A stretch of DNA of 64,000 bases from Streptomyces sp. HUAS 15-9. Its GTDB lineage: Bacteria > Actinomycetota > Actinomycetes > Streptomycetales > Streptomycetaceae. Each line of letters begins with the position of its first letter. The stretch's first letter is position 1. Of this stretch, positions 15,745 through 32,136 are shown piece after piece. The notes beneath the pieces are model-generated. The model saw only the letters and a list, made by a program, of their open reading frames with translations, was not told the origin of the DNA and did not search any database. Location of the stretch: positions 8,122,001 to 8,186,000 of the forward strand of contig NZ_CP106798.1 in assembly GCF_025642155.1 (NCBI RefSeq), in the 5' to 3' direction. Made by a program: the position numbers and the translations under genes.

Positions 15745-16157
15745 CCCAGATCCTCCTCGACCGGTCGGAAGGACAGGCCGGTCTCCGCCGGCGTTGCCGC
15801 ACGCCTGGGTTCTGGCTCCCGGTACTTCCATGCTGCCTCGGGGTTCCGCGGCTTGCCCAGCCACGCGGGGTCTGCATGTGCAGGTCAAGCCGGGTTTGGG
15901 TCGACAGTCGCGGAACTCATCGGCGAAGCAGTGCTGCCCATCGGTGAAGCCGTACTCGCTCAACTCGGCCCCGACGCGGCCATGGACGAGGATCCCGGCG
16001 GTCCGGCAGGTCCGGCACGGTCCCGCGGCGGCCCACCGGACCGCGCGGGCGACTTTGCCTTCTCTTTGCAACCTGCCCCTGTGCCGCCTCGTCTCTCCGC
16101 TCGATCTGTCACCCAGCCTCCCGGCCACCGGGCGGGCCGACGAAAGAGAGCGATTCG
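15745..16157. other. Intergenic stretch with a short direct repeat
   Basis: About 410 bases between the divergent phosphatase and surface-protein genes. It should contain both promoters, but I cannot point to a clear -35/-10 pair. A 21-base-spaced imperfect direct repeat (ATCGGCGAAGCAGTGCT then ATCGGTGAAGCCGTACT) lies near 15919-15957. If translated in one plus-strand frame it gives IGEAVLP-IGEAVLA, but there is no start or ribosome site, so I do not call a gene. Confidence 0.4.
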
Positions 16158-16535
16158 ATGCGCCGAACTGTCCCCAAGGGCATGGCACTTGCGTGCACGG
16201 CGGTGCTGGCGAGCGCCGTGCCCGCGTTCGCCGACGGGGCGACCGCGACCCCCTCCGCCGCGCCGACCCGGGCGTCGAGCGCCGCCCCCACCGAGATGCC
16301 CAGCGCCGAACCCTCCCGCGCGCCGGGCACCCGGCCGACCACGGCGCCGGCGCCCGCGCCGAGCCAGGTCTCCGTCGTGCCTTCGGGCGCCCCCGACACC
16401 GGGGTGCGGGCGGCGTCCGCCGGGTCCGGCTCCGGGACCGAGGGCGGCCTGATCGGCGGAGCCGCTGCCACTGTGCTCCTCGCGGGCGGCGGCGCGGTCC
16501 TCGTCGTACGCCGCCGGCGGGCGACCGGGGCATGA
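16158..16535 (+). CDS. Small surface protein with sorting-signal-like C-terminus
   Basis: A 125-residue protein with a signal peptide ending around PAFADG, a Pro/Thr/Ser/Ala-rich wall-spanning linker, then APDTG followed after about 15 residues by a hydrophobic helix (GGLIGGAAATVLLAGGGAVLV) and the basic tail RRRRATGA. This is the layout of a sortase substrate, although APDTG is a loose match to LPxTG. Its stop overlaps the ATG of the sortase gene (ATGA), so the pair is co-translated and this protein is probably the cognate substrate. Confidence 0.8.
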   Translation: MRRTVPKGMALACTAVLASAVPAFADGATATPSAAPTRASSAAPTEMPSAEPSRAPGTRPTTAPAPAPSQVSVVPSGAPDTGVRAASAGSGSGTEGGLIGGAAATVLLAGGGAVLVVRRRRATGA

Positions 16536-17154
16536 CCCCGCTCTCCAGGCGCGCCTTCGTCAGCGCGGTGAGCGCCACGCTGCTCGTCGGCTGCGCGGGT
16601 CCGGCGACCCACCGGGCCTCGACCGCACGTGCCGCGAGCACGCCAGAGCCTCCCCGGCCTCGGCCTCGGCCTCGGCGAGAACGGTGCGGGCCCTCGCGCG
16701 GTCGGTCCCGGTCCGGCTGCAGATCCCGGCCATCGGGGTCGACACCCCGCTCATCCGGCTGGGGCTGGAGCCCGACGGCACGGTGCAGGTACCTCCCGTC
16801 ACGGCGCACGACCGGGCGGGCTGGTACCGGCACTCGCCGACGCCGGGGCAGGTCGGTCCGTCGGTCATCCTCGGCCATGTGACGGTCGGCGCCTACGGGG
16901 ACGGGGTCTTCCGTCACCTCGCGCGGCTGCACCGCGGTGACCGGGTCGTGGCGCGCCTGGAGAACGGCACGGCGGCGGAGTTCACCGTCGGTGCCGTACG
17001 GACAGTGGCCAAGGCGGACTTCCCGGCGGACGAGGTCTACGGGAACGTCGGCCGTCCGGAGCTGCGGGTCATCACCTGCGGCGGTTCCCACACCGGCGAC
17101 GGCTATCTCGACAACGTGATCGTCTTCGCCGCGCTGAGCTCCACGAGCCCCTGA
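16532..17154 (+). CDS. Class F-like sortase, with an apparent frameshift
   Basis: The catalytic part (frame starting at GTG 16684, 156 residues) has IPAIGVDTPLIRLGL, the His in VILGHVTVGA, and RVITCGGSHTGDGYLDN with the catalytic Cys and the class E/F-type C-terminal signature. Sortases transfer surface proteins to peptidoglycan. The natural start is the ATG at 16532 overlapping the previous stop. Its frame gives a good leader (LSRRAFVSAVSATLLVGCAG, with a lipobox-like Cys) but then runs into Pro/Arg nonsense. The two frames join with a one-base loss somewhere in 16635-16683, near CCTCGGCCTCGGCCTCGG. Either a sequencing indel or a true mutation truncates it. Confidence 0.8.
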
Positions 17155-17164
17155 CCGCCCGCAC

Positions 17165-17205
17165 GGATGCCGGGCCTCGGAACGTACGCCGGCGGCCCGG
17201 CATCC
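17165..17205 (+). terminator. Rho-independent-type hairpin after the sortase gene
   Basis: GGATGCCGGGCC (17165-17176) and GGCCCGGCATCC (17194-17205) form a perfect 12-bp stem with a 17-base loop. The hairpin begins 11 bases after the sortase stop. There is no U-run beyond TTCCC, as is common in Streptomyces. Its position also argues against the ATG at 17167 being the start of the sigma gene. Confidence 0.8.
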
Positions 17206-17211
17206 TTCCCC

Positions 17212-17730
17212 GTGCATGCGACACGACCATGGAGAGCGTTGAAACGGTCCCGCGACAGGGCAGCGTCCGAGCTGTTCGCCGCCCTCTATCCGCGCCTCGC
17301 CGGCTGGTGCCGCCGTCTCGTCGACGACGACGAGACGGCCCACGAGGTCGCCTCGGAGGCGTTCACCCGGCTCTGGGCCCGCTGGACGACCGTGGAGGAG
17401 CCCCGCGGCTTCCTCTACGTCACCGCCGCCAACCTGGTCCGGGACCACTGGCGCAAGCTGGAGCGCGAGCGCAGGGCCATGCACCGCGCCACCTCGGAGG
17501 CCGCCGTCCGCCCCCACGACGAACAGACCGATCCCTCGGTACGGCTGCTCGTGCAGTCGCTCCCGGAACGACTGCGCGTCCCGATCCTGCTGCACTACTA
17601 CGCTGACATGCCGATCCGGGAGGTGTCCGCGCTGACCGGACGTAAGGAAGGAACCGTCAAGGCCGACCTCCACGCGGCCCGAGAACTGCTCCGCGCCCAC
17701 TTGAGGAGAAGCCTTGACCACACGCTTTGA
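17212..17730 (+). CDS. ECF-type RNA polymerase sigma factor
   Basis: A sigma-70 family protein of about 172 residues. The region 2 helix reads ASELFAALYPRLAGW...AHEVASEAFTRLW and PRGFLYVTAANLVRDHWRK. Region 4 reads LPERLRVPILLHYYADMPIREVSALTG, ending in the helix-turn-helix KEGTVKADLHAARELL. No region 1 or 3 is present, which defines the ECF class. The start is uncertain: GTG 17212 and TTG 17239 are both in frame, and TTG 17239 has GGAGAG close upstream. The gene overlaps the next gene, a membrane protein likely to be its regulator. Confidence 0.88.
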   Translation: MHATRPWRALKRSRDRAASELFAALYPRLAGWCRRLVDDDETAHEVASEAFTRLWARWTTVEEPRGFLYVTAANLVRDHWRKLERERRAMHRATSEAAVRPHDEQTDPSVRLLVQSLPERLRVPILLHYYADMPIREVSALTGRKEGTVKADLHAARELLRAHLRRSLDHTL

Positions 17731-18249: not shown

Positions 18250-18280
18250 TTTGACATCTTGATGGCATGCTCTGGTCAAA
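18250..18280 (+). promoter_or_regulatory. Candidate promoter or operator upstream of the M1 peptidase
   Basis: TTGACA at 18251-18256 is a perfect -35 hexamer, and GGTCAA lies 17 bases later as a poor -10. The same stretch is a dyad, TTTGAC (18250-18255) and GTCAAA (18275-18280), so it could be an operator instead. It lies about 175 bases before the M1 peptidase start. A similar TTTTGACATG occurs upstream of the sphingomyelinase-like gene. Confidence 0.4.
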
Positions 18281-18453
18281 TCTGTCACGCTTTCCGGCAG
18301 CCGTTGCCCCGACCCCAAGGGCCGCGGTGGAACACTCCCCGAGCGAACAGTCCGACCCAAACGCGCAAACCCGAGGTCGTCCACCGGCGCACCCCAGCCG
18401 GGCGGGCGGCCACCGAGCAGGCCGGAATCCCGGCCGCCGCAAAGGAGTTTCGT

Positions 18454-20313
18454 GTGAGATCGACCCCCCACAAGGCCCTCGCCGTCGGCGCAGCGGCCGT
18501 CGCCGCACTGGCCGCCGTCTCGCTTCCCGCCACCCCGGCCGGTGCCGCACCGCCCACAGCCCCGCTCGCCGCCGAGTGCACCCCGGCCCAGGTGGTCACC
18601 AACGGCGGTTTCGAGAGCGGGACTTCGCCCTGGACCCCGTCCTCGTCCGGCGTGATCACCAGCCGCAGCGGTCAGACCGCCCACGGCGGCACCAGCTTCG
18701 CCTGGCTGAACGGCGTCGGCAGCACCCACACCGACACGCTCTCGCAGAGCGTCACGATCCCCTCCGGGTGCAGCACCGCCACTCTCACTTTCTGGCTGCA
18801 CATCGACACCGCCGAGACGACCTCGTCGATCGCCTACGACAAGCTCACGGCGAAGATCGGCTCCACCACCCTGGCGACGTACTCGAACCTCAACGAGAAC
18901 ACCGGCTACGTGCAGAAGTCGTTCGACGTGTCGGCGTTCGCGGGCCAGACCGTGAACCTCGCCTTCACCGGCACCGAGGACTCCAGCCTGCAGACGAGCT
19001 TCGTCCTCGACGACATCGCCCTCGACACCTCCGGCGGTCCGACACCTCCGGCCGACTCCACCCGGACCCCGGCCGCACCCTCGTACACCGTCAGCCTGAG
19101 CAGCAACGCCGGCGGCACGGTGTGGACCGGCCATGAGAGCGTGGCCTTCACCAACGCCTCCTCCACCGCGCTCAGCGAGGTGTATCTGAGGCTGTGGGAC
19201 AACTACCACGGCACCTGCTCGGCCCCGCCGATCACCGTCAGCAATGTCACCGGCGGCACCGCGGGTGCCCTCTCCGTCGCCTGTACGGCGCTCAAGATCG
19301 ACCTGTCCTCGCCGCTGGCGCAGGGCCAGAGCGCGACGATCGGCTTCGACGTGGGCATCACCGTGCCCAGCGGCGCCGACCGCTTCGGTCACGACGGGGC
19401 CTTCAGCTTCATCGGCAACGCCCTGCCGGTCCTCGCGGTCAAGGACGGGGCCGGCTGGCACCTCGACCCGTACACCAACAACGGCGAGTCGTTCTACTCG
19501 CTGGCCGCCGACTTCAAGGTGACCCTCGACCACCCCAGCACCCTGCTCGTGCCGGCGACCGGCACATCGGTCGACACCCCCGGCTCCAGCGGCCGTACGG
19601 TCACCACCGCAACCGCCGCCAAGGTGCGGGACTTCGCCTGGGCCGCCGGGCCCTTCAGCAAGATCTCCGGCACCTCGACGGCCGGAGTCCCGGTGAACGT
19701 CTATTCCGTCTCGGGCATCAGCTCCTCCAGCGCCCAGTCGATGCTCACCACCGCAAAGTCCGCCGTGGACGCCCACGCGTCACGGTTCGGCGCCTACCCG
19801 TACGGCGAACTGGACGCGGTGATCGACAACAACTTCTGGTTCGGCGGCATGGAGTACCCGGGGTTCGTCCTCGACCTGGTCAGCACCACGGCGCTCACCC
19901 ATGAGATCGGCCACCAGTGGTGGTACGGCATCGTCGGTGACGACGAGTACAACAGCCCCTGGCTCGACGAGGCGTTCACCGACTACGCCACCGACCTGGC
20001 CCTGGGCAAGACCGGCACCAACTGCTGGAACAGCGTCTCGTGGGCCTCGTCCGCCGAGAAGATCACCAACTCGATGGCCTACTGGGACGCCCACTCGTCC
20101 CGGTACTCCACCGTGGTCTACGGCTACGGCAAGTGCGCCCTGCACGATCTGCGACGCGTCCTCGGTGATACCGCGATGACCAAAGTCCTGAAGGACTACG
20201 CCACTTCGCACTGGTACGGCGTCTCGACCACGGCCGAGTTCAAGGCGGCGGCCCAGGCCGCCACCAGCACGGACCTGACCTCGTTCTGGACCCAGCACCG
20301 CATCGACAGCTGA
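18454..20313 (+). CDS. Secreted M1-family metallopeptidase with N-terminal carbohydrate-binding-like domain
   Basis: A 619-residue exported protein starting at GTG 18454 after AAAGGAG. The signal peptide ends near PAGAAP. Residues 45-190 (VVTNGGFESGTSPW through SFVLDDIALD) form a CBM/galactose-binding-like jelly roll. After a Pro/Thr linker comes the M1 peptidase: FGGMEYPG (exopeptidase-like GxMEN variant), HEIGHQWW (HExxH zinc site) and WLDEAFTDYA (third ligand Glu). It releases N-terminal residues from peptides outside the cell. The accessory domain may tether it to polysaccharide. This is the second M1 enzyme in the window. Confidence 0.92.
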   Translation: MRSTPHKALAVGAAAVAALAAVSLPATPAGAAPPTAPLAAECTPAQVVTNGGFESGTSPWTPSSSGVITSRSGQTAHGGTSFAWLNGVGSTHTDTLSQSVTIPSGCSTATLTFWLHIDTAETTSSIAYDKLTAKIGSTTLATYSNLNENTGYVQKSFDVSAFAGQTVNLAFTGTEDSSLQTSFVLDDIALDTSGGPTPPADSTRTPAAPSYTVSLSSNAGGTVWTGHESVAFTNASSTALSEVYLRLWDNYHGTCSAPPITVSNVTGGTAGALSVACTALKIDLSSPLAQGQSATIGFDVGITVPSGADRFGHDGAFSFIGNALPVLAVKDGAGWHLDPYTNNGESFYSLAADFKVTLDHPSTLLVPATGTSVDTPGSSGRTVTTATAAKVRDFAWAAGPFSKISGTSTAGVPVNVYSVSGISSSSAQSMLTTAKSAVDAHASRFGAYPYGELDAVIDNNFWFGGMEYPGFVLDLVSTTALTHEIGHQWWYGIVGDDEYNSPWLDEAFTDYATDLALGKTGTNCWNSVSWASSAEKITNSMAYWDAHSSRYSTVVYGYGKCALHDLRRVLGDTAMTKVLKDYATSHWYGVSTTAEFKAAAQAATSTDLTSFWTQHRIDS

Positions 20314-20435: not shown

Positions 20436-21584
20436 CTAGTCCGGCAGGAGACACGCGGTGAGCGCGGCGGTGTCGTCGTGCAGGCCGTGCTCACTGTAGG
20501 CGAGCAGGTCGTGATGGAGCCTTTCCAGGAGCTGTCGGGGCGGTAGCGGGCCCCAGGCGCGGACGCGCTCGACGAGGGGATAGAAGGAGCCGTCCGGGGC
20601 GCGGGTCTCCGTGACGCCGTCCGTGTAGAGCAGCAACTGGTCGCCGGGGCGGAAGGCGTAGGTCTCCACGTGGTACGGCTCCCCGACGAGCACGCCGAGG
20701 TTCAGCGGCGGAGAGGACTGCCCCAGGTCCAGTTCGCGCACCTCCTCGGCACGGATGAGCAACGGCGGCGGATGGCCGCAGTTGACGACGCGGACGGCCT
20801 GCTCGTCGGCGTGGACCTCCGCGAAGACGGCGGTGACGAACCGTTCGCTCAGATCGCTCCCGGGGATCTGCTCGGCCCTGCGCGACATGCTGGTCTCCAC
20901 CCGGCCCACCAGGGCGGGCAGGTCGGGTTCGTCGTGCGCGGCCTCCCGGAACGCGCCGAGCAGGGTGGCGGCGGTCTCCACCGCGAGCAGGCCCTTGCCG
21001 CGGACGTCGCCGATGAGCAGCCGCACCCCGTGCACGGTGGGCACGGCCTCGTAGAGGTCACCGCCGATCCGCGCCTCCGCCGAGGCGGAGAGATAGAAGC
21101 TCTCCAGCACCAGGTCGCCGATCCGGCGCGGAACCGGCCGGAGCAGGACGCGTTGCGCCATCTCGGCCACGAAGCGCACATCGGCCAGGGTGCGCTCCCG
21201 TCGGATCCGGTGGGCGGCCAGGATCGTTCCCAGGGTGCCCACCAGGGCGGTACAGATGTAGGCCGCCACATAGTGCCGCTCCCACAGATATCCGACCTCA
21301 CGGCCCGCGCAGCACGGGGTACCGGCCAGGATCCCCAGGAAGACGATGGCGAACACCGTGGTGAGGGCGACGACAGCGGGTCCGTGGGCGAAGGCGGCCA
21401 CCAGAGGCAGGGCGATCAGCACGAAACTGACCGGCCACCGCACGGGCGTGATGGGCTCCAGCACCAGGACACCCACCACGTAGAGGACCGGAAGCCGGCG
21501 CAGCCACGCCGGCTCGGACGGTTGAGCCCCGGGCCCGGTCTGTGCCCGGGACCCATGACGGTCCGACTGACGCAGCCTCCACAC
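20436..21584 (-). CDS. Membrane-bound SpoIIE-type PP2C phosphatase
   Basis: A 382-residue protein with three or four N-terminal transmembrane helices (about residues 28-130) and a cytosolic PP2C/SpoIIE domain from about 160: SASAEARIGGDLYEAV, LLIGDVRGKGLLAVE, VNCGHPPPLL and the C-terminal HGLHDDTAALT with metal-binding Asp residues. No extracellular sensor domain is visible, so the membrane part itself is probably the sensor. This is a frequent Streptomyces architecture, thought to dephosphorylate anti-anti-sigma factors. Its start faces the biosynthetic operon across 300 bases. Confidence 0.9.
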   Translation of the reverse strand: MWRLRQSDRHGSRAQTGPGAQPSEPAWLRRLPVLYVVGVLVLEPITPVRWPVSFVLIALPLVAAFAHGPAVVALTTVFAIVFLGILAGTPCCAGREVGYLWERHYVAAYICTALVGTLGTILAAHRIRRERTLADVRFVAEMAQRVLLRPVPRRIGDLVLESFYLSASAEARIGGDLYEAVPTVHGVRLLIGDVRGKGLLAVETAATLLGAFREAAHDEPDLPALVGRVETSMSRRAEQIPGSDLSERFVTAVFAEVHADEQAVRVVNCGHPPPLLIRAEEVRELDLGQSSPPLNLGVLVGEPYHVETYAFRPGDQLLLYTDGVTETRAPDGSFYPLVERVRAWGPLPPRQLLERLHHDLLAYSEHGLHDDTAALTACLLPD

Positions 21585-21885
21585 ACCGAACTCCCGGACA
21601 CGATCTCAGCAGAAAGGCCAGCGTCCAGTGCCGGGCCGCGGCGCACCGGCGATTGCTCCACTCAACGGCATGTCCGGCCTGCATGCGTGGACCGCCATCC
21701 GGGTGATCTCCGAGGCATGCCCAACCTGCCGGAAACCAGGGAACACGGGCCTGTCGCGCGCTGCCGTCGCCCCGGGCGATCGATCAGGAGTGGCACCCGC
21801 ACGGTGATCGACTGAAACTGAGATCCACGGTTCGTGATCAGTAACGGGCGCAATGCCCAGTTGAAAACGTCCTCCAGGAGGTCGG
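21585..21885. promoter_or_regulatory. Divergent intergenic region upstream of the biosynthetic operon
   Basis: These 300 bases separate the phosphatase from the Dap operon and must hold the operon promoter. Near 21803-21840 GATC-centred short repeats occur (GTGATCGACTG and CGTGATCAGTAACG). I cannot identify a convincing -35/-10 pair. A weak ribosome site (AGGAGG) precedes the GTG/ATG region of the first gene near 21876-21881. Confidence 0.4.
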
Positions 21886-24441
21886 ATGGTCGAGCAGTCC
21901 TCCGGGGTCCATATATCCGGGACGAGCGCGTCGGTCGTCGACCGACTTGCGGAAGTGCTGGCAGATGTCACTTCCGTGGAACGAGTTCCGGTCGACGGTC
22001 ACTTCTTCGACGACCTCGGTGCCAACTCGCTGGTGATGGCGCAATTCTGTGCGCGGGTCAGGAAAATACCGGACCTGCCGTCCGCGTCCATGAAGGACAT
22101 CTACCGGAACCCGACGATCGAAAGACTCGCCGCGGCTCTCGCGGTGACGGATCCCGCTCCCGCCGCCTCGTCGCTTCTCTCGAAGCCATCGGCGCAGCCG
22201 GCCGCACCGACGCCGGTCACGCTGGCGAGCCGGCCCACCTATGTCCTGTGCGGAACAGCCCAGTTGTTGTTCTTCCTGGCATACTCCCTGGTCTTCGGAG
22301 TCGTCACCGCCCGCGGCTACGAATGGGTCGCGACCGGTTCGGACCTGGCCGACATCTATCTGCGCTCGCTGGCCTTCGGCGGCCTCGGTTTTCTGGCGAT
22401 GTGCCTGTTCCCGATCGCCGCCAAATGGATTCTCATCGGCCGCTGGAAACCCCGTGAGTTCCCCGTCTGGGGTCTGACCTATCTGCGTTTCTGGCTCGTC
22501 AAGGTACTGCTCCACGGCAATCCGATGGTCCTCTTCATCGGGAATCCGCTGTATGTGCTGTACCTCCGGGCGCTCGGCGCACACATCGGCAAGGGAGTCA
22601 CGATCCTCTCCCGCACCGTCCCGGTCTGCACCGACCTCATCACCATCGGGGCCGGCACGGTGATCCGCAAGGACTCGTTCTTCGTCGGCTACCGGGCCCA
22701 CGCGGGTCGTATCCAGACCGGCAGGGTCACCCTCGGCCGGGATGCGTTCATCGGGGAGAAGTCGGTCCTCGACATCGATACGGCCGTGGGCGACCGGGCG
22801 CAGCTCGGTCACTCGTCCGCCCTGCACCGCGGTCAGTCGATCCCGGACGGAGAGCGCTGGCACGGATCCCCGGCGGAGCCCACCGAGGTCGACCATGTGC
22901 GGGTCGCTCCGGCGAGGTGCGGCACCGCGCGCCGGGTCTGGTTCGGCCTGGGCACCCTGTTCCAGTTGTTCCTCCTCTACATACCGCTGGCCGTCGGCGG
23001 GCTGTACATGCTGTTCTCCGTGGTTCCGGCGCTGGGCTCACGACTGGGACCGGACTCGGCCGGAATCACGACGGGAACGCTGCTCAGCGACGCGCTGCTG
23101 CTGTCCTTCGTGACGTTCTTCGGGTTCGTCGTCCTGGGCCTCGCCGCGCTGTTCACCGTTCCGCGGTTGGTGGCCCGGGCCATCAAACCCGACAAGGTCT
23201 ATCCCCTGTACGGCTTTCACTACGCGCTGCACCTGGCGACGGCGCGCATGACGAACATCAAGTTCTTCGCCTGGCTCTTCGGTGACAGCTCGTTCATCGT
23301 GTACTACCTGCGCGGTCTCGGGTACGACCTGTCCAAGGTCGAGCAGACCGGCTCGAACTTCGGCACCGAGGTGCAGCACGAGACCCCGTTCCTGGCCTCC
23401 ATCGGCAGCGGAACCATGGTGGCCGACGGACTCTCCATCGCCAACGCGGAGTTCTCCAGCACATCCTTCCGGGTGTCCCGGACGACGATCGGTCCGCACA
23501 ACTTCCTCGGCAACAACATCGTCTACCCGGCCGGCGGCAGAACGGGCGACAACTGCCTTCTCGCGACGAAGGTGTTGATCCCTCTCGACGGCGAGATCCG
23601 CCAAGGCGTGGGTCTCCTCGGATCGCCCAGCTTCGAGATACCCCGGTCGGTGGAACGGGATTCACGGTTCGACGACCTCAGGACCGGGGACACCCTGCGC
23701 CACCGTCTCGCCGCGAAGAACCGCTACAACCTTCGCTCGATGGCCGTCATGCTGTTCGTGCGGTGGCTGTTCACCTTCGCGCTCACGCTGTTCGCCCTGC
23801 AGTCCGTCGAAGTGTACGGCTGGCTCGGACATGCGGTGATCGCCCTGTATCTGGCCTGCACGCTCGCCTTCACCGCCCTCTACTACGTGCTGCTGGAGCG
23901 CTGCATCACCTCGTTCCGCGCACTGCGCCCCAAACTGTGCTCCATCTACGACCCGTACTTCTGGTGGCACGAGCGCCTGTGGAAGGTCCCGGACCACTAC
24001 CTGAACATCTTCAACGGGACCCCCTTCAAGACCCTGATCTGGCGGATGACCGGTGCCCGCGTCGGCAGCAGGGTGTTCGACGACGGCTGCTACATGACCG
24101 AGCGGACGCTCAGCACCATCGGCGACGGCTGCACCCTGAACGCCGGGAGCAAGATCCAGTGCCACTCTCAGGAGGACGGCACCTTCAAGTCCGACACCAC
24201 CACGCTCGGTGCCGGGTGCACGCTCGGCGTCGGCGCCCATGTGCACTACGGCGTGACGATGGGCGACGGTGCCGTACTGGCGGCCGACTCCTTCCTCATG
24301 AAGGGCGAGGAAGTCCCCCCGAACGCACGGTGGGGCGGCAACCCCGCCGTGGACATGCCCGACGCCTCCGAACAGTCCTGTGGCATCGGCCCGGCAACCG
24401 CACTGCCCGCGCCCAACGGCGCCGCGAAGACGATGAGTTGA
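21886..24441 (+). CDS. Pls-type membrane synthetase without adenylation domain (T-TM-C1-TM-C2-TM-C3)
   Basis: An 851-residue protein. Residues 15-85 are a carrier (thiolation) domain with DDLGANSLVMAQ, where Ser48 would carry phosphopantetheine. Three pairs of transmembrane helices (about 122-180, 350-430 and 620-680) alternate with three hexapeptide left-handed beta-helix domains (about 220-300, 480-590 and 730-830; for example GAGCTLGVGAHVHYG). This matches the C-terminal two thirds of epsilon-poly-lysine synthetase Pls, where tandem C domains polymerise the residue at the membrane, but the N-terminal adenylation domain is missing. An adenylation domain is encoded by the next gene, 13 bases downstream. 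I infer a split polymerase acting on activated Dap. Confidence 0.88.
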   Translation: MVEQSSGVHISGTSASVVDRLAEVLADVTSVERVPVDGHFFDDLGANSLVMAQFCARVRKIPDLPSASMKDIYRNPTIERLAAALAVTDPAPAASSLLSKPSAQPAAPTPVTLASRPTYVLCGTAQLLFFLAYSLVFGVVTARGYEWVATGSDLADIYLRSLAFGGLGFLAMCLFPIAAKWILIGRWKPREFPVWGLTYLRFWLVKVLLHGNPMVLFIGNPLYVLYLRALGAHIGKGVTILSRTVPVCTDLITIGAGTVIRKDSFFVGYRAHAGRIQTGRVTLGRDAFIGEKSVLDIDTAVGDRAQLGHSSALHRGQSIPDGERWHGSPAEPTEVDHVRVAPARCGTARRVWFGLGTLFQLFLLYIPLAVGGLYMLFSVVPALGSRLGPDSAGITTGTLLSDALLLSFVTFFGFVVLGLAALFTVPRLVARAIKPDKVYPLYGFHYALHLATARMTNIKFFAWLFGDSSFIVYYLRGLGYDLSKVEQTGSNFGTEVQHETPFLASIGSGTMVADGLSIANAEFSSTSFRVSRTTIGPHNFLGNNIVYPAGGRTGDNCLLATKVLIPLDGEIRQGVGLLGSPSFEIPRSVERDSRFDDLRTGDTLRHRLAAKNRYNLRSMAVMLFVRWLFTFALTLFALQSVEVYGWLGHAVIALYLACTLAFTALYYVLLERCITSFRALRPKLCSIYDPYFWWHERLWKVPDHYLNIFNGTPFKTLIWRMTGARVGSRVFDDGCYMTERTLSTIGDGCTLNAGSKIQCHSQEDGTFKSDTTTLGAGCTLGVGAHVHYGVTMGDGAVLAADSFLMKGEEVPPNARWGGNPAVDMPDASEQSCGIGPATALPAPNGAAKTMS

Positions 24442-24454
24442 GGAGGGCCATTCG

Positions 24455-27400
24455 ATGGGAGCGCGCGTGGAGGCCGACCGGGAGTTCTGGACCGGCGTGC
24501 TGACCGCCGGTGGTTTCACCGCCGTACCGCGGTGGGTCCGCCAGCCGGTGGCCTCAGTGGCCGAGTACGAGGCGGCGGTCCCGCAGGACGTCGCGGCGGC
24601 GGTGCGCGGGCTGGCCCGGGAGTCGGGTGTCCCGCTGAGCGCGGTACTGCTGGCCGCCCATGCCAAGGTGCTGACCGCGCTGTCCGGTGAGCGGGAAGTG
24701 GTGACGGGTTATGCCGCCGGGGCCCGGGGCGGCCCGCTGCCCTGCCGGCTGACCGTCGCACCGGGGACCTGGCGCGCGCTGCTGTCGCGGGCTCATCACG
24801 TCGAGGCCGAACTGCTGGCGTTCCGCGACTTCCCGGTGACCGAGCTGCGCCGGGAGCTGGGGGTGACCGGACCGTCGTACGAGATCGTGTTCGATCCCGC
24901 CGGGGCCGAGAGCGGGCTGGTCGACGAGGCCGCACTCGGTGTCGCCTGGTGCGACGAGGGCGGGCGGCTGTTCGTACGGCTGCGGTACCGCACCCAGACG
25001 CTGGACTCCGAGTGCGCGGCCCGGATCGGGGGCTACCACCTGGCCGCACTGCGGTTGATGACGGATGACATCGATGCCGATCACTCGCGGCAGAGCCTCC
25101 TGTCGGACGACGAGGTGCATGAGCAGCTCGACGGGCTGGCCGGACCTCACCGCAGACTCCCGCAGGGCCGGGCACACGAACTGTTCGAGCAGCGGGTACG
25201 CGCGCATCCGCAGGCGGTGGCGGCGGTCCACGGCGAGCGCGAGTGGACGTACACGGAGCTCAATGCACGTGCCAACCGGCTGGCGCGGGCGCTGGTGCGG
25301 CGGGGACTGGGCCGGGAAGACGTCGTCGCGGTGGTCACCGAACGCAATCTCGACTGGCTGGCCGCGGTACTGGCGGTGTTCAAGGCCGGAGGCGTGTACC
25401 TGCCGATCGAACCGCACTTCCCCCCCGGCCGTATCACCGCGACCCTCGCGCGCGCCGAATGCCGGCTGGTGCTGACCGAGCCCGGCAGCACCGACACCCT
25501 CGACGAGGCCCTCACCGGCCTGCCCGGAGTCGAGAAGCTGCTCATCGAGGCGGCCTGCGCGGAGCAACACGTCGACGGCGACCTCGGGTTGAAGGTCACC
25601 GCCGATCAACTGGCGTACATCTACTTCACCTCCGGCTCCACCGGCGAACCGAAGGGAGCGATGTGCGAGCACGCGGGCATGCTCAACCACCTGTACGCCA
25701 AGATCGACGACCTGGACATCGCCCAGGGGCACGTGGTGGCGCAGACGGCACCGCAGTGCTTCGACATCTCCCTGTGGCAGCTGATCTCCGCGCTGCTGGT
25801 CGGCGGGCGGACGCTGCTGGTCCCGCAGGACGCGATCACGGACGTGGAGCGGTTCCTCGACACGATCGTCCGCGGCCGTGCCCGCGCGGTGCAGGTCGTG
25901 CCCTCCTACCTGGAAGTGGTGGTGTCGTATCTCGAACGGCACCCCCGGGAGCTGCCGGACCTGCGGTGTGTGTCGGTGACCGGTGAGGCGCTCAAACGGG
26001 AGCTGGTCCAGCGCTGGTTCGCGATCCAGCCGGGCATCAAGCTGGTCAACGCCTATGGCCTGACCGAGACTTCGGACGACACCAACCACGAGGTCATGAC
26101 CGAGGTGCCCGAACGCGTGCTGCTGGGCCGCGCGGTCAACAACGTGCACGTCCACGTCGTCGACGAGCACCTGTCACTCGTACCGCTGGGCGCACCAGGA
26201 CTGATCGCGTTCTCCGGTGTCTGCGTGGGGCGGGGGTATGTCAACGACCCCGAACGGACCCGCGAGGCGTACCGGGACAACCCCTACTTCCCGGGGGAAC
26301 GGCTCTACCTCGGCGGTGACTGGGGCCGCTGGCATCCCGGCGGCAAGCTGGAGTTCCTCGGCCGACGCGACAACCAGGTCAAGATCCGCGGCTTCAGGAT
26401 CGAGATCGGAGAGATCGAGAACACCCTCCTGCGGGTGAAGGGCGTGCGGGACGGCGCCGTGGTCGTCGCCGAGCGGGCCGACCAGAGCAAGCACCTCATC
26501 GCCTTCTACACCGGCCGCCGTCAGGAGACCGAGGCACTGCGCGAGGCGCTCGGTGCGGCACTGCCCGCCTACATGGTCCCCTCGGCCTTCCACTGGCAGT
26601 CGGGCCTGCCGCTGACCCCCAACGGCAAGACCGACAAGAAGGCCCTGACCGCGCTCGCCGAACAGACGCAGCCGACCGCCGAGAGCGAGACCGTCGGGCA
26701 GCCCGACCGCTGCGCCCTCACCCCCACCGAGCGGAAGCTGGCGGCCGCCTGGGCGGAACTGCTAGGGGTTCCCGAGGAACGCATCGGCCGAAGAGACCAC
26801 TTCTTCGACTCCGGAGGCACCTCACTGTCGGCGGTGAAACTCACCATCGCCCTCGACCGCGCGGTGTCCCTCAAGGACATCACCCGGCACCCGGTGCTCG
26901 CCGACCTGGCCGCGCTCCTCGACGGCGCCGGCCACAAGCGCCAGGAACTGCTCCAGCCACTGTCCGACGCGGGCGCCGCGCCGGAGTGCGCACTGGTCTG
27001 CTTCCCCTACGCGGGCGGCAACGCCGTCAACTACCAGCCCATGGCCACCGCCCTGGCGGGCAGCGGGACCGCGGTCTACGCGGTGGAGCTGCCCGGTCAC
27101 GACCTGGCCGCCCACAACGAGCCGTTCGCGGCGCTCACCCAGGTGGCCGAACAGGTCGTCACCGAGATCACCGCACTCGGCCCGGCCAGGGTCCTGCTGT
27201 GGGGCCACTCCTCGGGCGCGGCCCTCGCCGTGGAGACGGCGCGACGACTGCAGGAACGGGGGACCGAGGTCTCCCGGGTGTTCCTCGGCGCGCAGCTGCC
27301 CGGCACCGCCGCCGACCGCCGCGCCGCCGTCGACGAGCTGACCGGCCGCAGCGACGCCGAGATCGCCGCCCGGCTGACGGCCGACAGCGGCTACACCGAA

Positions 27401-27718
27401 CTCGGTGAACTCAACGCACAGCACGCCCGGCACATCGGCGCCGCCTACCGCCACGACTGCGTGTCCGCGCACCGCTACTTCGCCGACGCCCTGGAGGACC
27501 CGCCGGCTGTGAAGCTGTCCGCACCGGTCACCGTGGTCATCGCCGCCGACGACCCGAGTACGCCCGGCCCCCGCGACCGGCACCGCGCCTGGCAGCTGCT
27601 GGCCGAGCACGTGGACCTTAGCGAACTCACCGACGGCGGCCACTACTTCCTGCGCACCCGTCCGGCCGAAGCCGCGCAGATTGTCCTGGGCGCGGCCGAA
27701 TCGCTCGCCTCCTCCTGA
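24455..27718 (+). CDS. NRPS: partial C - A - T - TE, predicted to activate a basic amino acid
   Basis: 1,087 residues starting at ATG 24455 after GAGGAGG. Residues 1-215 resemble only the C-terminal lobe of a condensation domain; the HHxxxDG lobe is absent. The adenylation domain spans about 230-735, with YFTSGSTGEPKGAM, FDISLWQ, NAYGLTETSDD and NGKTDKKAL containing the catalytic Lys. By hand alignment the specificity pocket reads D-I-W-Q-S-T-A-D-D-K; the paired Asp residues would suit a positively charged side chain. The carrier domain follows (FFDSGGTSLSA, about 780), then a thioesterase with WGHSSGAAL (about 915) and a final GGHYF His. With SbnA/SbnB-type genes downstream, L-2,3-diaminopropionate is the likely substrate. 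Confidence 0.92.
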   Translation: MGARVEADREFWTGVLTAGGFTAVPRWVRQPVASVAEYEAAVPQDVAAAVRGLARESGVPLSAVLLAAHAKVLTALSGEREVVTGYAAGARGGPLPCRLTVAPGTWRALLSRAHHVEAELLAFRDFPVTELRRELGVTGPSYEIVFDPAGAESGLVDEAALGVAWCDEGGRLFVRLRYRTQTLDSECAARIGGYHLAALRLMTDDIDADHSRQSLLSDDEVHEQLDGLAGPHRRLPQGRAHELFEQRVRAHPQAVAAVHGEREWTYTELNARANRLARALVRRGLGREDVVAVVTERNLDWLAAVLAVFKAGGVYLPIEPHFPPGRITATLARAECRLVLTEPGSTDTLDEALTGLPGVEKLLIEAACAEQHVDGDLGLKVTADQLAYIYFTSGSTGEPKGAMCEHAGMLNHLYAKIDDLDIAQGHVVAQTAPQCFDISLWQLISALLVGGRTLLVPQDAITDVERFLDTIVRGRARAVQVVPSYLEVVVSYLERHPRELPDLRCVSVTGEALKRELVQRWFAIQPGIKLVNAYGLTETSDDTNHEVMTEVPERVLLGRAVNNVHVHVVDEHLSLVPLGAPGLIAFSGVCVGRGYVNDPERTREAYRDNPYFPGERLYLGGDWGRWHPGGKLEFLGRRDNQVKIRGFRIEIGEIENTLLRVKGVRDGAVVVAERADQSKHLIAFYTGRRQETEALREALGAALPAYMVPSAFHWQSGLPLTPNGKTDKKALTALAEQTQPTAESETVGQPDRCALTPTERKLAAAWAELLGVPEERIGRRDHFFDSGGTSLSAVKLTIALDRAVSLKDITRHPVLADLAALLDGAGHKRQELLQPLSDAGAAPECALVCFPYAGGNAVNYQPMATALAGSGTAVYAVELPGHDLAAHNEPFAALTQVAEQVVTEITALGPARVLLWGHSSGAALAVETARRLQERGTEVSRVFLGAQLPGTAADRRAAVDELTGRSDAEIAARLTADSGYTELGELNAQHARHIGAAYRHDCVSAHRYFADALEDPPAVKLSAPVTVVIAADDPSTPGPRDRHRAWQLLAEHVDLSELTDGGHYFLRTRPAEAAQIVLGAAESLASS

Positions 27719-27756
27719 ACCTCCAGCCCCAGATGGGCAACCGAAGGGAAACCGAG

Positions 27757-28761
27757 ATGTCGTCCTCACCGCTGGCCGCACCACTCGACGTGGAGCTGAA
27801 ACCGGACAGACCTCCGATCCTGCACATCGACTCCCCCGGCGACGCTGCGAGTTGGGCGGCCCAGTACCGCGAGGCACTGCGTGCGCAGGTGACCGAGCAC
27901 GGCGCACTGCTCGTCCGCGGCCTGGGACTGCGCGAGACGGATCAGGTCGGTGCCGTCTTCGGCGCCCTGTCGGGCGGTCTGATGACGGAGCGAGAAGCCT
28001 TCGCCCCCCGAGAGGCGTACGGCCCGGGGCTGTACTCCTCGACGGCCTGGCCGGCCAACCAGCCGATGTGCATGCACCACGAACTGAGCTACACCGTCGA
28101 GGTTCCCGGCCTGATGCTGTTCGCGTGTCTGACCGCCCCCGCCGAGGGCGGGGCGACCGCGGTCGCCGACGCCGAACAGATGCTCCAGGCGCTGCCCACC
28201 ACACTGAGCGAGCGGTTCGAGCACGAGGGCTGGCTGCTCACCCGCAGCTACAACGACGAGATCGGGGCGTCCCTCGCGGAGTCCTTCGGCACCGACGACC
28301 CCGCCGCCGTCGAACGCTACTGCGGGGCCCATGCCATCGACTTCGCCTGGCAGCCCGACGGCTCACTGCGCACCCGGCAGCGCCGCAGCGCCGTGGTGCG
28401 GCACCCGGTCACCGGCCGGCGCTGCTGGTTCAACCAGATCGCCTTCCTCAACGAGTGGACGCTGGCCCCGGAGGTGCGCGAGTACCTCGTGGACGTCTAC
28501 GGCGACGAGGGCCTGCCGTTCAACACCCGCTTCGGAGACGGCACTCCGATCGACGAGGACGTCGTCCAGCTCCTCAACTCCACCTACGAGGAGCACACCC
28601 GCCGCGAGCCCTGGCAGGCCGGTGACCTGATGCTCGTGGACAACATCCGCACCGCACACAGCAGAGAGCCCTACGGCGGAGAACGTCAGGTGCTGGTCGG
28701 CATGGCCGAGCCCTGCCGCCTGAGCGACTGCGCCCCGACCCCGGAGGCAAGCCGGCGATGA
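27757..28761 (+). CDS. Fe(II)/2-oxoglutarate-dependent oxygenase (TauD/clavaminate-synthase-like)
   Basis: A 334-residue protein. MHHELSYTVEVPG holds the HxE metal pair typical of the clavaminate synthase/VioC/SyrP side of the family, and DNIRTAHSREPY supplies the third His, with the 2-oxoglutarate-binding Arg in the following GGERQVL. These enzymes hydroxylate free or carrier-bound amino acids. I chose ATG 27757 (MSSSPLAAP) over 27733 because AAGGGA precedes it. Its stop overlaps the ATG of sbnB (ATGA), which ties it to Dap synthesis. It may hydroxylate Dap or the assembled chain. Confidence 0.88.
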   Translation: MSSSPLAAPLDVELKPDRPPILHIDSPGDAASWAAQYREALRAQVTEHGALLVRGLGLRETDQVGAVFGALSGGLMTEREAFAPREAYGPGLYSSTAWPANQPMCMHHELSYTVEVPGLMLFACLTAPAEGGATAVADAEQMLQALPTTLSERFEHEGWLLTRSYNDEIGASLAESFGTDDPAAVERYCGAHAIDFAWQPDGSLRTRQRRSAVVRHPVTGRRCWFNQIAFLNEWTLAPEVREYLVDVYGDEGLPFNTRFGDGTPIDEDVVQLLNSTYEEHTRREPWQAGDLMLVDNIRTAHSREPYGGERQVLVGMAEPCRLSDCAPTPEASRR

Positions 28762-29828
28762 GCAACACACTGTCACCCGCCACACGGCGGACCAAGCCCC
28801 ACGCGGCCACGACGCCGACGTTCGCGGTGATCTCCGGCGCACAGGTGCAACAGGCACTCGCCGGCCGCGAGAAGGAGATCGTGGAGCTCGTCGAGTCCAC
28901 CTACCGGCTGCACGGCGCCGGAGACTCGGTCAACCCCCCGTCGTACTTCCTGCGCTTCCCCGACCGCCCCACGTCGCGGATCATCGCGCTGCCCGCCTCC
29001 ATCGGCGGCGAGGACCATGTGGACGGCCTGAAGTGGATCTCCAGCTTCCCGGACAATGTGACGGCGGGCCTGCCACGGGCCTCCGCGGTCCTCATCCTCA
29101 ACGACCATGACACCGGCTACCCGTTCGCCTGCCTGGAGAGCTCCATCATCAGCGCCACGCGAACCGCGGCATCCGCCGCACTGGCAGCCGACTGGCTCAG
29201 CCGCAACCGGCCCCGCCCCACCCGGATCGGATTCTTCGGTACGGGCCTGATCGCCCGCTACATCCACACCTTCCTGGCCGGCACCGGCTGGTCGTTCGAC
29301 ACGATCGGTGTGCACGATGTGTCCGCCGACAGCGCCGCCGGCTTCACCGGATATCTGCGGCAGACCGACACCACGGCACAGGTCCAGGTCCACGACACCG
29401 CCGAGGACCTGATCCGCTCCAGCGACCTGGTGGTCTTCGCCACCGTCGCCGGCGAGCCGCATGTCACCGACCAGGCCTGGTTCGCGCACCACCCGCTCGT
29501 CCTGCATGTGTCCCTGCGCGACCTCGCCCCGGAGATCCTGCTCGCCTCGGCCAACATCGTCGACGACGTCGAGCACTGCCTGAAGGCGGACACCTCACCG
29601 CATCTGGCCGAACAGCTCACCGGCAGCCGCGACTTCCTCGACGGCACCCTCGACGACGTCATGTCCGCACGGCACATTCTGCCGACCGACCGGACGGTGA
29701 TCTTCTCGCCCTTCGGACTCGGCGTCCTCGACCTCGCCGTCGGCAAGTACGTCTACGACGAGGTGGCCCGGGCGGGACAACTCCGCCTCATCGACAACTT
29801 CTTCCACGACCTGCGCCGGTACGGCTGA
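28758..29828 (+). CDS. sbnB: 2,3-diaminopropionate biosynthesis protein SbnB-like
   Basis: A 356-residue member of the ornithine cyclodeaminase/mu-crystallin family. LPASIGGEDHVDGLKWISSFP and the Rossmann signature GFFGTGLIARYIHTF bind NAD, and ILNDHDTGYPFACLESS is the substrate region typical of SbnB. In Staphylococcus, SbnB oxidatively cleaves N-(1-amino-1-carboxy-2-ethyl)glutamate to L-Dap and 2-oxoglutarate. The ATG overlaps the oxygenase stop, and the SbnA-like gene follows 37 bases after its own stop. The adjacent pair makes this assignment strong. Confidence 0.92.
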   Translation: MSNTLSPATRRTKPHAATTPTFAVISGAQVQQALAGREKEIVELVESTYRLHGAGDSVNPPSYFLRFPDRPTSRIIALPASIGGEDHVDGLKWISSFPDNVTAGLPRASAVLILNDHDTGYPFACLESSIISATRTAASAALAADWLSRNRPRPTRIGFFGTGLIARYIHTFLAGTGWSFDTIGVHDVSADSAAGFTGYLRQTDTTAQVQVHDTAEDLIRSSDLVVFATVAGEPHVTDQAWFAHHPLVLHVSLRDLAPEILLASANIVDDVEHCLKADTSPHLAEQLTGSRDFLDGTLDDVMSARHILPTDRTVIFSPFGLGVLDLAVGKYVYDEVARAGQLRLIDNFFHDLRRYG

Positions 29829-29865
29829 AACCCCACTTCGTCGGCCCTGGCACCAGGAGGCCCAA

Positions 29866-30888
29866 GTGCCCGTCATATCCGCGCCGCAAGCCTTCAACGA
29901 AGGCGCGCTCTACGTCGACCTCGAGTCGATCCTCGGGGTGCGTTTCTACCTGAAGTGCGAGGGCTTCAACTTCGCCGGCTCCATCAAGCTGAAGGCGGCG
30001 AACGAGATGGTGGAGAGCGCCGAGCGTGAGGGAATCCTGACGCCCGACTCGATCCTCGTCGAGTCCTCGTCGGGAAACCTGGGAGTGGCGCTCAGCATGA
30101 TCGCCGCGAGCAAGGGATACCGGTTCCTGTGTGTGACGGACTCCCGCTGCAACCTGTCCACCCGTCTGCTGATGGAGGCGCTGGGCAGCGAGGTGCACAT
30201 CGTGGCCGACCTCGACTCCAACGGCGGCTTCCTCGGCAAACGGATCGACTACGTCCGTTCGCTGTGCGCGTCCGACGACCGGTACGTGTGGCTCAGTCAG
30301 TACACCAACCCCGGCAACTGGCGGGCGCACTTCCTCACCACCGCCCCGGAGATCGCCACTCAGTTCCCGCAGCTCGATGTGCTGTTCATCGGGGCGGGCA
30401 CCACCGGAACCCTGATGGGCTGCGCCCGCTACTTCCGGCGGTGGCACCGCCCCGTGCGGATCGTCGCCGTCGACAGCGTAGGCTCCGTGGCCTTCGGCGG
30501 GGAGCCGGGCCGCCGGATGATTCCGGGCCTGGGCATGAGCATGCGCCCACCGCTGCTGAACGAGGCGTACGTGGACGAGGTGATCCGGGTCGAGGAGGCC
30601 GACACCATCCGTATGTGCCACCGGCTGGCCCGGCGCGGGTTCCTGTTCGGCGGCTCCACGGGAACGGTGGTGAGCGGCGCGCTGGACTGGCTGACCCGGC
30701 ACGACACCCGGGACATCACCGCGGTGGCCGTCGCGCCGGACCTCGGCGAGCGCTATCTCGACACCATCTACCAGATCAACTGGCTCCAGGACCTGTACGG
30801 GGACGACATCCTCGACTCCGAGGCCCTGACCGCCTCCCGCAAGGCCAAGACGGTCTCACAGGAGTCGGCACGCCGACGCAGATCCTGA
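29866..30888 (+). CDS. sbnA: 2,3-diaminopropionate biosynthesis protein SbnA-like (PLP enzyme)
   Basis: A 340-residue cysteine-synthase-fold enzyme starting at GTG 29866 after GGAGG. GFNFAGSIKLKAA holds the Schiff-base Lys, SSSGNLGVALSMIAA is the substrate loop, and GAGTTGTLMGCARY binds the PLP phosphate. SbnA condenses O-phospho-L-serine with L-glutamate to give the SbnB substrate, so the two genes together convert phosphoserine plus glutamate to L-Dap. It is the last gene of the five-gene operon. It converges on the VWA gene across only 12 bases. Confidence 0.92.
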   Translation: MPVISAPQAFNEGALYVDLESILGVRFYLKCEGFNFAGSIKLKAANEMVESAEREGILTPDSILVESSSGNLGVALSMIAASKGYRFLCVTDSRCNLSTRLLMEALGSEVHIVADLDSNGGFLGKRIDYVRSLCASDDRYVWLSQYTNPGNWRAHFLTTAPEIATQFPQLDVLFIGAGTTGTLMGCARYFRRWHRPVRIVAVDSVGSVAFGGEPGRRMIPGLGMSMRPPLLNEAYVDEVIRVEEADTIRMCHRLARRGFLFGGSTGTVVSGALDWLTRHDTRDITAVAVAPDLGERYLDTIYQINWLQDLYGDDILDSEALTASRKAKTVSQESARRRRS

Positions 30889-30900
30889 TCCGTGGTGAAC

Positions 30901-32136
30901 TCACCCGATGTCGACCACCCGCGCCCACGCGGGTGGTGAATCCGGCACATGGTCGGGATCGCCCTCGTCCCACGACGGCCGTGAGCGAGGAAACAGACCC
31001 ACCACGGTCCGGCACGGCGGACGCGTGGTCGGCCACGGGGTCTGTCCGTCGGTGAGGGCCACGATGACATCCGGCCGCGGCCGGGCGCGCAGGGCCCTGG
31101 CGAAGCCCGTGCGCAGATCTGTGCCGCCACCGCCCATCAGCGGAATGCCCTCACCACGGCACAGCGGGTGCACGATCCGGGCCGACGCGTCGCACGGCAA
31201 CACGGTGACCAGGTCACGGCGGCCGCCCACGGCCCGGGAGATCGCGGTGACCTCCAGGAGCGCGCTGCCCAGTTCGGCGTCGCTGACCGACCCGGACGTG
31301 TCGATGACCACGGCGACCCGGGGCGGCATCCGCCTCAGGCTCGGGAGCACCGTGCCGGGCACCGAGGCCGAGCGCCGCGACAGCCGGCCGTACGAGTAGT
31401 CCTCGCCCGCGCCGGAGCCGGACGCCGCCGAGCGGACCGCGGCCCCCAGCAACTCCCGCCACGGCTGCGGCGGATGGAACGCCTCCTCCGCCCAGCGCCG
31501 CCACCCCTTCGGGGCGTTGCCGGGACGGCCGTTGATGCCCTGCGCCACCCGGAACCGGACGCCGTCCCGCTCCTGCTCACTCAGCCCGTGCGCGCCGTCC
31601 GGACCCAGGTCCCACTCCCGGTCCAGCCCATCGGCACCGCTGCCGCAGTCCAGCCAGGAGAGGTTGTCCAGCCACGGTCCGAGCCGGAACAGGCGCAGAT
31701 AGTCCTCCATGAGCTCCCCTTCGGGCAGCCCCATCGACTCCGGCCGGACAGCGTCTTCGGGCTGGACCAGCCCATGACCGAACACATCGTCGTTGATCTC
31801 CAGATCCGCGGCGATGTTCATCCGCAGCCGTTCCCCAGGACCGGTCAGCCCACGCTCCCGGGCGACCCTGTCACTGCGCCCGTGGTGGTCGCGCAACAGA
31901 TGCGACACCTCGTGCACCCAGACCCCGGCCAGTTCCTCCACCGGCATCCGGTCCACGAACACCGGCGAGACATAGCACCGCCAGTACCGGTCGACGGCCA
32001 TCGTCGGTACCCGCCGCGACTCGACGGGGTGCAGGGCGAACAGCGCCGTCGCCAAGTACGGCCGGACGCGGGCGGCGTGCAGCCGGGCGGCAAAGAGCTT
32101 GTCGAAGTCCAGCGTCCCGGGCGCGTCCGTCGTCAT
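30901..32136 (-). CDS. DUF2201-type putative metallopeptidase with C-terminal VWA domain
   Basis: A 411-residue protein. The N-terminal part has VWVHEVSHLLRDHHGR (an HExxH zinc-like site) and a downstream acidic MNIAADLEINDD, as in DUF2201/peptidase-like proteins. From about 275 a VWA domain begins, with the MIDAS DTSGSVSDAE and later GGGGTDLRTGF and LTDGQTPWP. VWA proteins of this sort work with MoxR ATPases in assembly or activation of target complexes. Its ATG overlaps the stop of the MoxR gene (ATGA), so the two are coupled. Proteolytic activity is not proven by sequence. Confidence 0.88.
   Translation of the reverse strand: MTTDAPGTLDFDKLFAARLHAARVRPYLATALFALHPVESRRVPTMAVDRYWRCYVSPVFVDRMPVEELAGVWVHEVSHLLRDHHGRSDRVARERGLTGPGERLRMNIAADLEINDDVFGHGLVQPEDAVRPESMGLPEGELMEDYLRLFRLGPWLDNLSWLDCGSGADGLDREWDLGPDGAHGLSEQERDGVRFRVAQGINGRPGNAPKGWRRWAEEAFHPPQPWRELLGAAVRSAASGSGAGEDYSYGRLSRRSASVPGTVLPSLRRMPPRVAVVIDTSGSVSDAELGSALLEVTAISRAVGGRRDLVTVLPCDASARIVHPLCRGEGIPLMGGGGTDLRTGFARALRARPRPDVIVALTDGQTPWPTTRPPCRTVVGLFPRSRPSWDEGDPDHVPDSPPAWARVVDIG

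Follow-up and report, generated by a model that had tools for sequence, protein, structure and literature searches.

A split Pls-type membrane synthetase encoded with an oxygenase and diaminopropionate genes in a conserved five-gene unit of Streptomyces

In a 64,000-nt stretch of the genome of Streptomyces sp. HUAS 15-9 (positions 8,122,001-8,186,000 of NZ_CP106798.1; henceforth the window, to which all coordinates below are relative), we found a five-gene unit in which a membrane domain of the Pls/PosA type is encoded apart from its adenylation (A) domain, together with a non-ribosomal peptide synthetase (NRPS) protein, an oxygenase and two genes for the synthesis of L-2,3-diaminopropionate (L-Dap), a rare amino acid. 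On balance, we favour the reading that this unit is a self-contained, split and oxygenase-coupled synthetase of the cationic poly(amino acid) type, which would make an oxidised L-Dap isopeptide. The five open reading frames (ORFs) span 21886-30888 in an operon-like run on the + strand, with intergenic gaps of 13, 14, -4 and 37 bases from gene 1 to gene 5. Families were assigned by profile search against Pfam and NCBIfam models, using curated cut-offs where they exist (C, condensation; T, carrier; TE, thioesterase):

21886..24441, + strand: gene 1, T domain and Pls/PosA-type membrane condensing domain, without an A domain (TIGR02353, 841.9 bits; 851 aa)
24455..27718, + strand: gene 2, half-C - A - T - TE NRPS protein (PF00501, PF13193, PF00550, PF00975, partial PF00668; 1087 aa)
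27733..28761, + strand: gene 3, TauD-type Fe/2-oxoglutarate oxygenase (PF02668, E 3.5e-43; 342 aa)
28758..29828, + strand: gene 4, SbnB, Dap synthesis (TIGR03944, 420.2 bits, cut-off 326.9; 356 aa)
29866..30888, + strand: gene 5, SbnA, Dap synthesis (TIGR03945, 379.4 bits, cut-off 349.95; 340 aa)

A first-pass annotation of this DNA had described a same-strand run of five genes containing an oxygenase, a membrane protein with the tandem C1-C2-C3 layout of Pls and a complete route to L-Dap through SbnA and SbnB. All of this was borne out: the ORFs are present at these coordinates with agreeing family matches, the oxygenase matches PF02668, the membrane protein matches TIGR02353 at full length, and both Sbn proteins score above their curated NCBIfam cut-offs. 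The domain list given there stood in part; A, T and TE are indeed on the NRPS protein, but a half-C domain precedes them and the T domain of the Pls-type protein had been missed.

Judged by its conserved positions, the Pls-type part of gene 1 is intact. Its domains are as follows:

21940..22140, + strand: T (carrier) domain of gene 1 with the serine of LGANS (PF00550, residues 19-85; motif from the sequence)
22246..24348, + strand: C1-C2-C3 membrane domain of gene 1 (TIGR02353 model positions 1-695 on residues 121-821)

The match to TIGR02353 is above cut-off over the whole 695-position model, the T domain lies directly N-terminal to the membrane domain, and six hydrophobic regions are arranged as three pairs. 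Gene 1 resembles the Pls/PosA family, to which the synthetase of epsilon-poly-L-lysine (Pls) belongs, poly-lysine being a food preservative; as in that family, its T domain precedes three transmembrane (TM) pairs and the C1, C2 and C3 domains in tandem. It differs in that profile search found no A domain (PF00501) on gene 1; the A domain is on gene 2, and the unit includes an A-T(-TE) protein of its own as well as an oxygenase. Gene 1 retains each of the 56 columns that do not vary among 14 A-containing Pls proteins (a reference set that includes the genome's own 1325-aa Pls), and 54 of these columns are each conserved in at least 90% of 45 A-less proteins from the unit. A pattern for the gene-1 carrier serine matched in 31 of 36 units (here and in all 36-unit motif scans, the window plus 35 related loci), with one of the five misses, L068, reading GADSM.

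The predicted structure of gene 1 (built from 17 sequences; mean predicted local distance difference test score 69) contains three helix pairs with a region of short strands after each, and the solved structures nearest to this model are hexapeptide acyltransferases. One rival reading of the unit, which we consider very improbable, is that the Pls-type protein moves Dap, oxidised or not, onto an envelope lipid, glycan or protein instead of onto another Dap. The best structural matches of the model would fit this, as would the occurrence of plasmid-borne A-less relatives (L084, L085) amid metal-related genes and without the other four genes. However, acyltransferase-like folds are also described for a polymer synthetase, as PosA has been modelled with three left-handed beta-helices above its TM helices (PMC10522769, as excerpted), and no further gene recurs beside the unit.

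Gene 2 carries the activating domains of the unit:

24455..25144, + strand: C-terminal half of a condensation domain, without HHxxxDG (PF00668 positions 189-284 only, below cut-off; end approximate)
25184..26647, + strand: A domain, pocket code read as DIWQSTADDK (PF00501 and PF13193; code by motif position)
26735..26920, + strand: T (carrier) domain of gene 2 (PF00550, residues 761-822)
26993..27661, + strand: thioesterase domain with the serine of GHSSG (PF00975, residues 847-1069)

Its predicted structure matches NRPS-module folds. The first ~230 residues match just the C-terminal part of a condensation domain, and a motif scan found HHxxxDG in none of the 36 units. The pocket code DIWQSTADDK was read identically by script in 35 of 36 units, with the final K unread in six; for L076 the script gave a different code, yet the same S-V-T motif stands in its sequence. 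We did not find this code in the literature searched. Dap as the substrate of this A domain is suggested through guilt by association, i.e., by pocket codes found beside Dap genes. Among plasmid-borne relatives, L008 (DIWEALADDK) adjoins annotated SbnA and SbnB, while L007 (the same code as the window) and L009 (DIWQATCDDK) adjoin enzymes that match SbnA below cut-off, plus an argH-type lyase.

Read across genes 1 and 2, the domains run T - C1C2C3 - A - T, the order expected of an NRPS in which the Pls domain stands in for the C domain. Three loci with in-frame fusions bear on the arrangement: TauD is in frame with the NRPS at L059, L062 and L068, and at L068 a single open frame of 2285 aa reads T-Pls-halfC-A-T-TauD. 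These fusions could be assembly effects, yet three loci agree.

The five-gene arrangement recurs far beyond chance. In a hand-chosen sample of 38 regions (from which the genome's own A-containing Pls, L069, was kept apart as a control and L074 was set aside as a two-base slip), 35 of 36 related loci hold all five genes. The exception, L071, has only TauD and SbnB; its genome (G012) carries the unit in two places ~5.3 Mb apart, with TauD and SbnB at L071 and SbnA, Pls and NRPS at L124, and so keeps all five. Of a second sample (L112-L131), 18 of 20 loci hold the complete set, the others being L124, without TauD and SbnB, and L125, which is a single-chain A-T-Pls. A third sample (L144-L153) comprised three complete loci (L150-L152), one with three of the genes on a 10.7-kb contig (L153) and six single-chain loci (L144-L149). 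We also scanned named Streptomyces with a seed alignment of TauD and kept the best 80 of 481 relatives; in 79 of these 80 all five genes are present in the same order and on the same strand, and the 80th lies on a 4.4-kb contig. S. alanosinicus is among the carriers of the unit (L190).

Across Streptomyces genomes the Pls subfamily was found in 141 of 392 (E<=1e-150), at least five of which (G060, G096, G149, G164, G240) hold a single-chain A-T-Pls instead. The 130 genomes in which TauD reaches E 1.7e-128 are all among these 141 (according to hand-copied lists). In a class-level sample, 17 of 394 genomes carry the subfamily (E<=1e-100), 13 of them Streptomyces. The 9.6-Mb source genome encodes two further TIGR02353 proteins above cut-off: one is the 1325-aa Pls, and the other belongs to a second copy of the five-gene unit at ~522-531 kb, in which the NRPS stops after T (i.e., has no TE) and SbnA is reversed.

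Units differ mainly in gene 2. Form 1, that of the window, has half-C-A-T-TE; form 2 is without the TE motif (16 of 36 units), although in L065 a sequence match still reaches into the TE region; and in a third form (L112-L115, L120, L129) the match of gene 2 begins at residue 149-176, with the half-C mostly gone. These forms are not clades, as form 2 splits into two tree groups. Common to the sampled loci is a core of T-Pls, A-T, TauD, SbnB and SbnA. The unit is real and conserved, and it is probably functional.

As for the oxygenase, Fe/2-oxoglutarate oxygenases carry an HxD/E ... H facial triad, and halogenases are without the acid. An HHE motif was found in TauD of 35 of 36 units and the distal His pattern in 32 of 36; the window protein has both. 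On chemical grounds, Dap hydroxylated at the beta position while its beta-amine is free would be an unstable carbinolamine, so that the hydroxy-Dap polymer with units of 102.04 Da put forward in the first-pass annotation is just one of several possible outcomes.

We propose that the unit works as follows. SbnA and SbnB would make L-Dap. The A domain of gene 2 would activate it and charge two carriers, the one on its own protein (T2) and, in trans, that of gene 1 (T1); TauD would oxidise the Dap unit while it is bound on T2, and the C1-C2-C3 domain of gene 1 would join Dap units, replacing the degenerate half-C as the condensation domain. The outcome may be a short or a polymeric cationic isopeptide at the membrane, which the thioesterase, where present, would release or edit. 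Capreomycin synthesis offers a precedent for the loading in trans: the L-Dap A domain CmnA-A1 loads the A-less CmnI (PMC12400406, excerpt). The likeness lies in an A-less carrier module proposed to be loaded by the A domain of another protein; the difference is that CmnI, as described there, has an intact C domain (HHxxxD), in whose place the present unit has a Pls-type membrane domain.

The SbnA and SbnB proteins resemble those of staphyloferrin B synthesis in scoring above the curated cut-offs, and differ in standing beside a peptide synthetase and not in a siderophore route, with predicted substrates. The excerpt of PMC4668381 describes S. albulus NjxA/NjxB as using substrates other than O-phosphoserine and glutamate.

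Several observations weigh against our proposal. On the current view, the acceptor of Pls enzymes is free; in that case the second carrier would not have to be involved in bond formation, and the carrier of gene 2 would serve oxidation only. The substrate and the product of the unit are read from sequence, and the pocket positions follow the GrsA numbering. TauD relatives at L088 and L089 accompany an A domain, caught by pattern, that looks serine-like by the serine pocket code, and a search of those loci found neither SbnA nor SbnB; the oxygenase therefore does not prove Dap. Some TauD copies have one in-frame stop (L077 in G203, G369, G380, G141 and others), and some Pls copies likewise carry one. 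Among single-chain relatives, no Dab (diaminobutyrate) family was found in the few neighbours scanned at L125, L146 and L147. Finally, a 63-row tree gives only weak support (90/58) to the branching order of A-containing and A-less forms, and its root is unsure.

A different explanation, which we regard as possible though clearly less probable than not, is that the unit releases a small metabolite (an oxidised Dap monomer, a Dap-Dap dipeptide or a ring), with gene 2 acting like the stand-alone A-T-TE modules that charge, oxidise and release one amino acid, and the Pls domain making a single bond. A-T-TE with an oxygenase is a known layout for the oxidation of carrier-tethered amino acids; the TE motif in 20 of 36 units, the in-frame joining of TauD to the NRPS at three loci and the presence of two carriers only would all suit such a product. 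On the other hand, the TE motif is missing in the remaining 16 units, so release seems not to need a TE, the 56 invariant columns of the Pls type are kept, and poly-Dab-type loci are where some of the closest A-containing relatives are found.

The nearest A-containing relatives sampled comprise six Streptomyces single-chain A-T-Pls loci (L125, L144-L148), with 50-53% identity, and L149 from another genus (55% identity), which has a phosphopantetheinyl transferase neighbour. TauD, SbnB and SbnA were absent from the stretch around each of these seven loci (E<=1e-15). A Dab transaminase adjoins L144, L145 and L148, and two of the three also adjoin an aspartate kinase. The poly-Dab pathway is described, in the part of PMC8225329 consulted, as PddA with the helpers PddC and PddD, of the Dab transaminase and aspartate kinase type. 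L144, L145 and L148 (53% identity) share these helper genes and group near the unit proteins in the tree; they differ from the unit in their single-chain A-T-Pls architecture, a different pocket and the lack of any TauD, SbnA or SbnB found nearby. A Skermanella relative adjoins ectB. In Pseudonocardia alni, a TauD gene follows a single-chain relative (L079, 4622-9133; 52% identity); the Pls protein of L079 also has carrier-domain matches at three places, suggesting tandem carriers.

Alternatively, the product may be a Dap polymer of comb-like or alternating build, similar to the multi-L-Dap-poly-L-Dap reported from one poly-lysine-producing Streptomyces, in which one carrier would serve the backbone and the other the side chain; we think this improbable. 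The unit does have two carriers and one A domain, and a repeated-dipeptide, comb-like Dap polymer is cited (PMC10522769, PMC9606270). Yet these descriptions, in the excerpts available, mention no oxidation, whereas TauD accompanies the other genes in 35 of 36 sampled loci and is present in all 80 best named loci (from the scan seeded with TauD).

That the unit is no more than a conventional Pls or the poly-Dap locus already described, as the sharing of one operon by Dap genes and a Pls-type protein might suggest, is refuted on architecture, and we give it next to no credence. The first-pass annotation had left its identity with the published cluster to be compared. PDAPs of S. albulus PD-1 is described as a single ORF of 4,338 bp with its own A and peptidyl carrier protein domains and seven TM domains, and pdaps is said not to have its Dap genes nearby (PMC4668381, excerpt). 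PDAPs, known to us by this description, resembles the unit in its Pls-type C-terminal domain and in the supply of Dap by two proteins, relatives of cysteine synthase and of ornithine cyclodeaminase. In the unit, by contrast, gene 1 is A-less and shares its run with SbnB and SbnA. Gene 1 is, moreover, only 26% identical to the genome's own A-containing Pls, from which the subfamily is also far removed in the tree. The Pls-style Dap polymer proposed initially does not follow in that simple form: gene 1 is not a full Pls, and with a classical NRPS A domain and a separate carrier on another gene, Pls-style homopolymerisation is not implied.

We also considered the alanosine cluster, which is described as having a cupin protein, an acyl-CoA-dehydrogenase-type hydroxylase and nitrogen-oxide genes beside its Dap genes (PMC11705231, excerpt). 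This identity was rejected, as none of these marker genes was among the ten window neighbours scanned and no additional gene recurs in more than 1 of 19 form-1 loci. In S. scabies, SbnB is reported to be made in the presence of potato and to be encoded near sbnA and an NRPS gene (PMC11479980, excerpt). We found no description of the five-gene unit or its product in the open-licence literature searched, a body of text that leaves subscription papers mostly outside.

Upstream of gene 1 we found one further conserved feature:

21790..21821, + strand: conserved element GTGGCA ... AACTGA, possibly a promoter (upstream of gene 1; a conserved block follows GTGGCA)

A scan of the 350 bp upstream detected GTGGCA in 20 of 20 form-1 units, at distances of 68-212 bp from the start, and, among form-2 units, in 2 of 16. 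No sigma-70-type match was found within 21500-31200. Control of the unit by iron or zinc is not supported, and iron or zinc boxes do not account for the conserved element. Three consensus boxes were compared with shuffled sequences: iron-box matches lay inside the range of shuffled sequences, zur matches fell below the shuffle minimum in 2 of 20, and no nur match did so, in a test that was lenient in that shuffles were scanned on one strand and real sequences on both.

No further ORF around the unit recurs in more than one of 19 form-1 loci (regions of ~20 kb). In the window, two SpoIIE-phosphatase proteins adjoin the unit on the - strand (13678-17721 and 20436-21584; one with PAS and GAF domains) and are not conserved in relatives. 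Two genes with M1-peptidase domains lie within 9 kb of each other (11981-13501 on the - strand and 18259-20313 on the + strand), and the latter additionally has an InhA-like MAM domain. Elsewhere, three plasmids carry A-less Pls genes amid metal-related genes and without the other four genes: the neighbours are cation transporters, CopC and DUF305 at L084, ArsR/SmtB at L085 and a ZIP transporter at L086 (Arthrobacter), where an 84-residue SbnA-like piece also lies just upstream of the A-less Pls.

Roughly one in three of the Streptomyces genomes sampled (141 of 392) carries the unit or a close single-chain relative, and some do so twice. More speculatively, and with more doubt than belief, the unit may represent a genus-wide type of NRPS in which a Pls domain condenses two carrier-bound units (T1 - C1C2C3 - A - T2 - oxygenase, the order of the single frame at L068), takes over from a canonical C domain undergoing decay in those operons and produces a common Streptomyces metabolite so far unseen, an oxidised Dap isopeptide. 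One published network of these synthetases was filtered at 1100-1800 residues (PMC10522769, as excerpted), which leaves out A-less forms of 850 residues, and the unit would thus widen the search for polycationic isopeptides. In it, Dap supply, carrier-bound oxidation and isopeptide formation at the membrane would be tied together in a single nine-kilobase set that can be expressed whole, and since nature has here split the Pls-type C1-C3 domain from its A domain, the unit offers a way to learn the role of that domain on its own.

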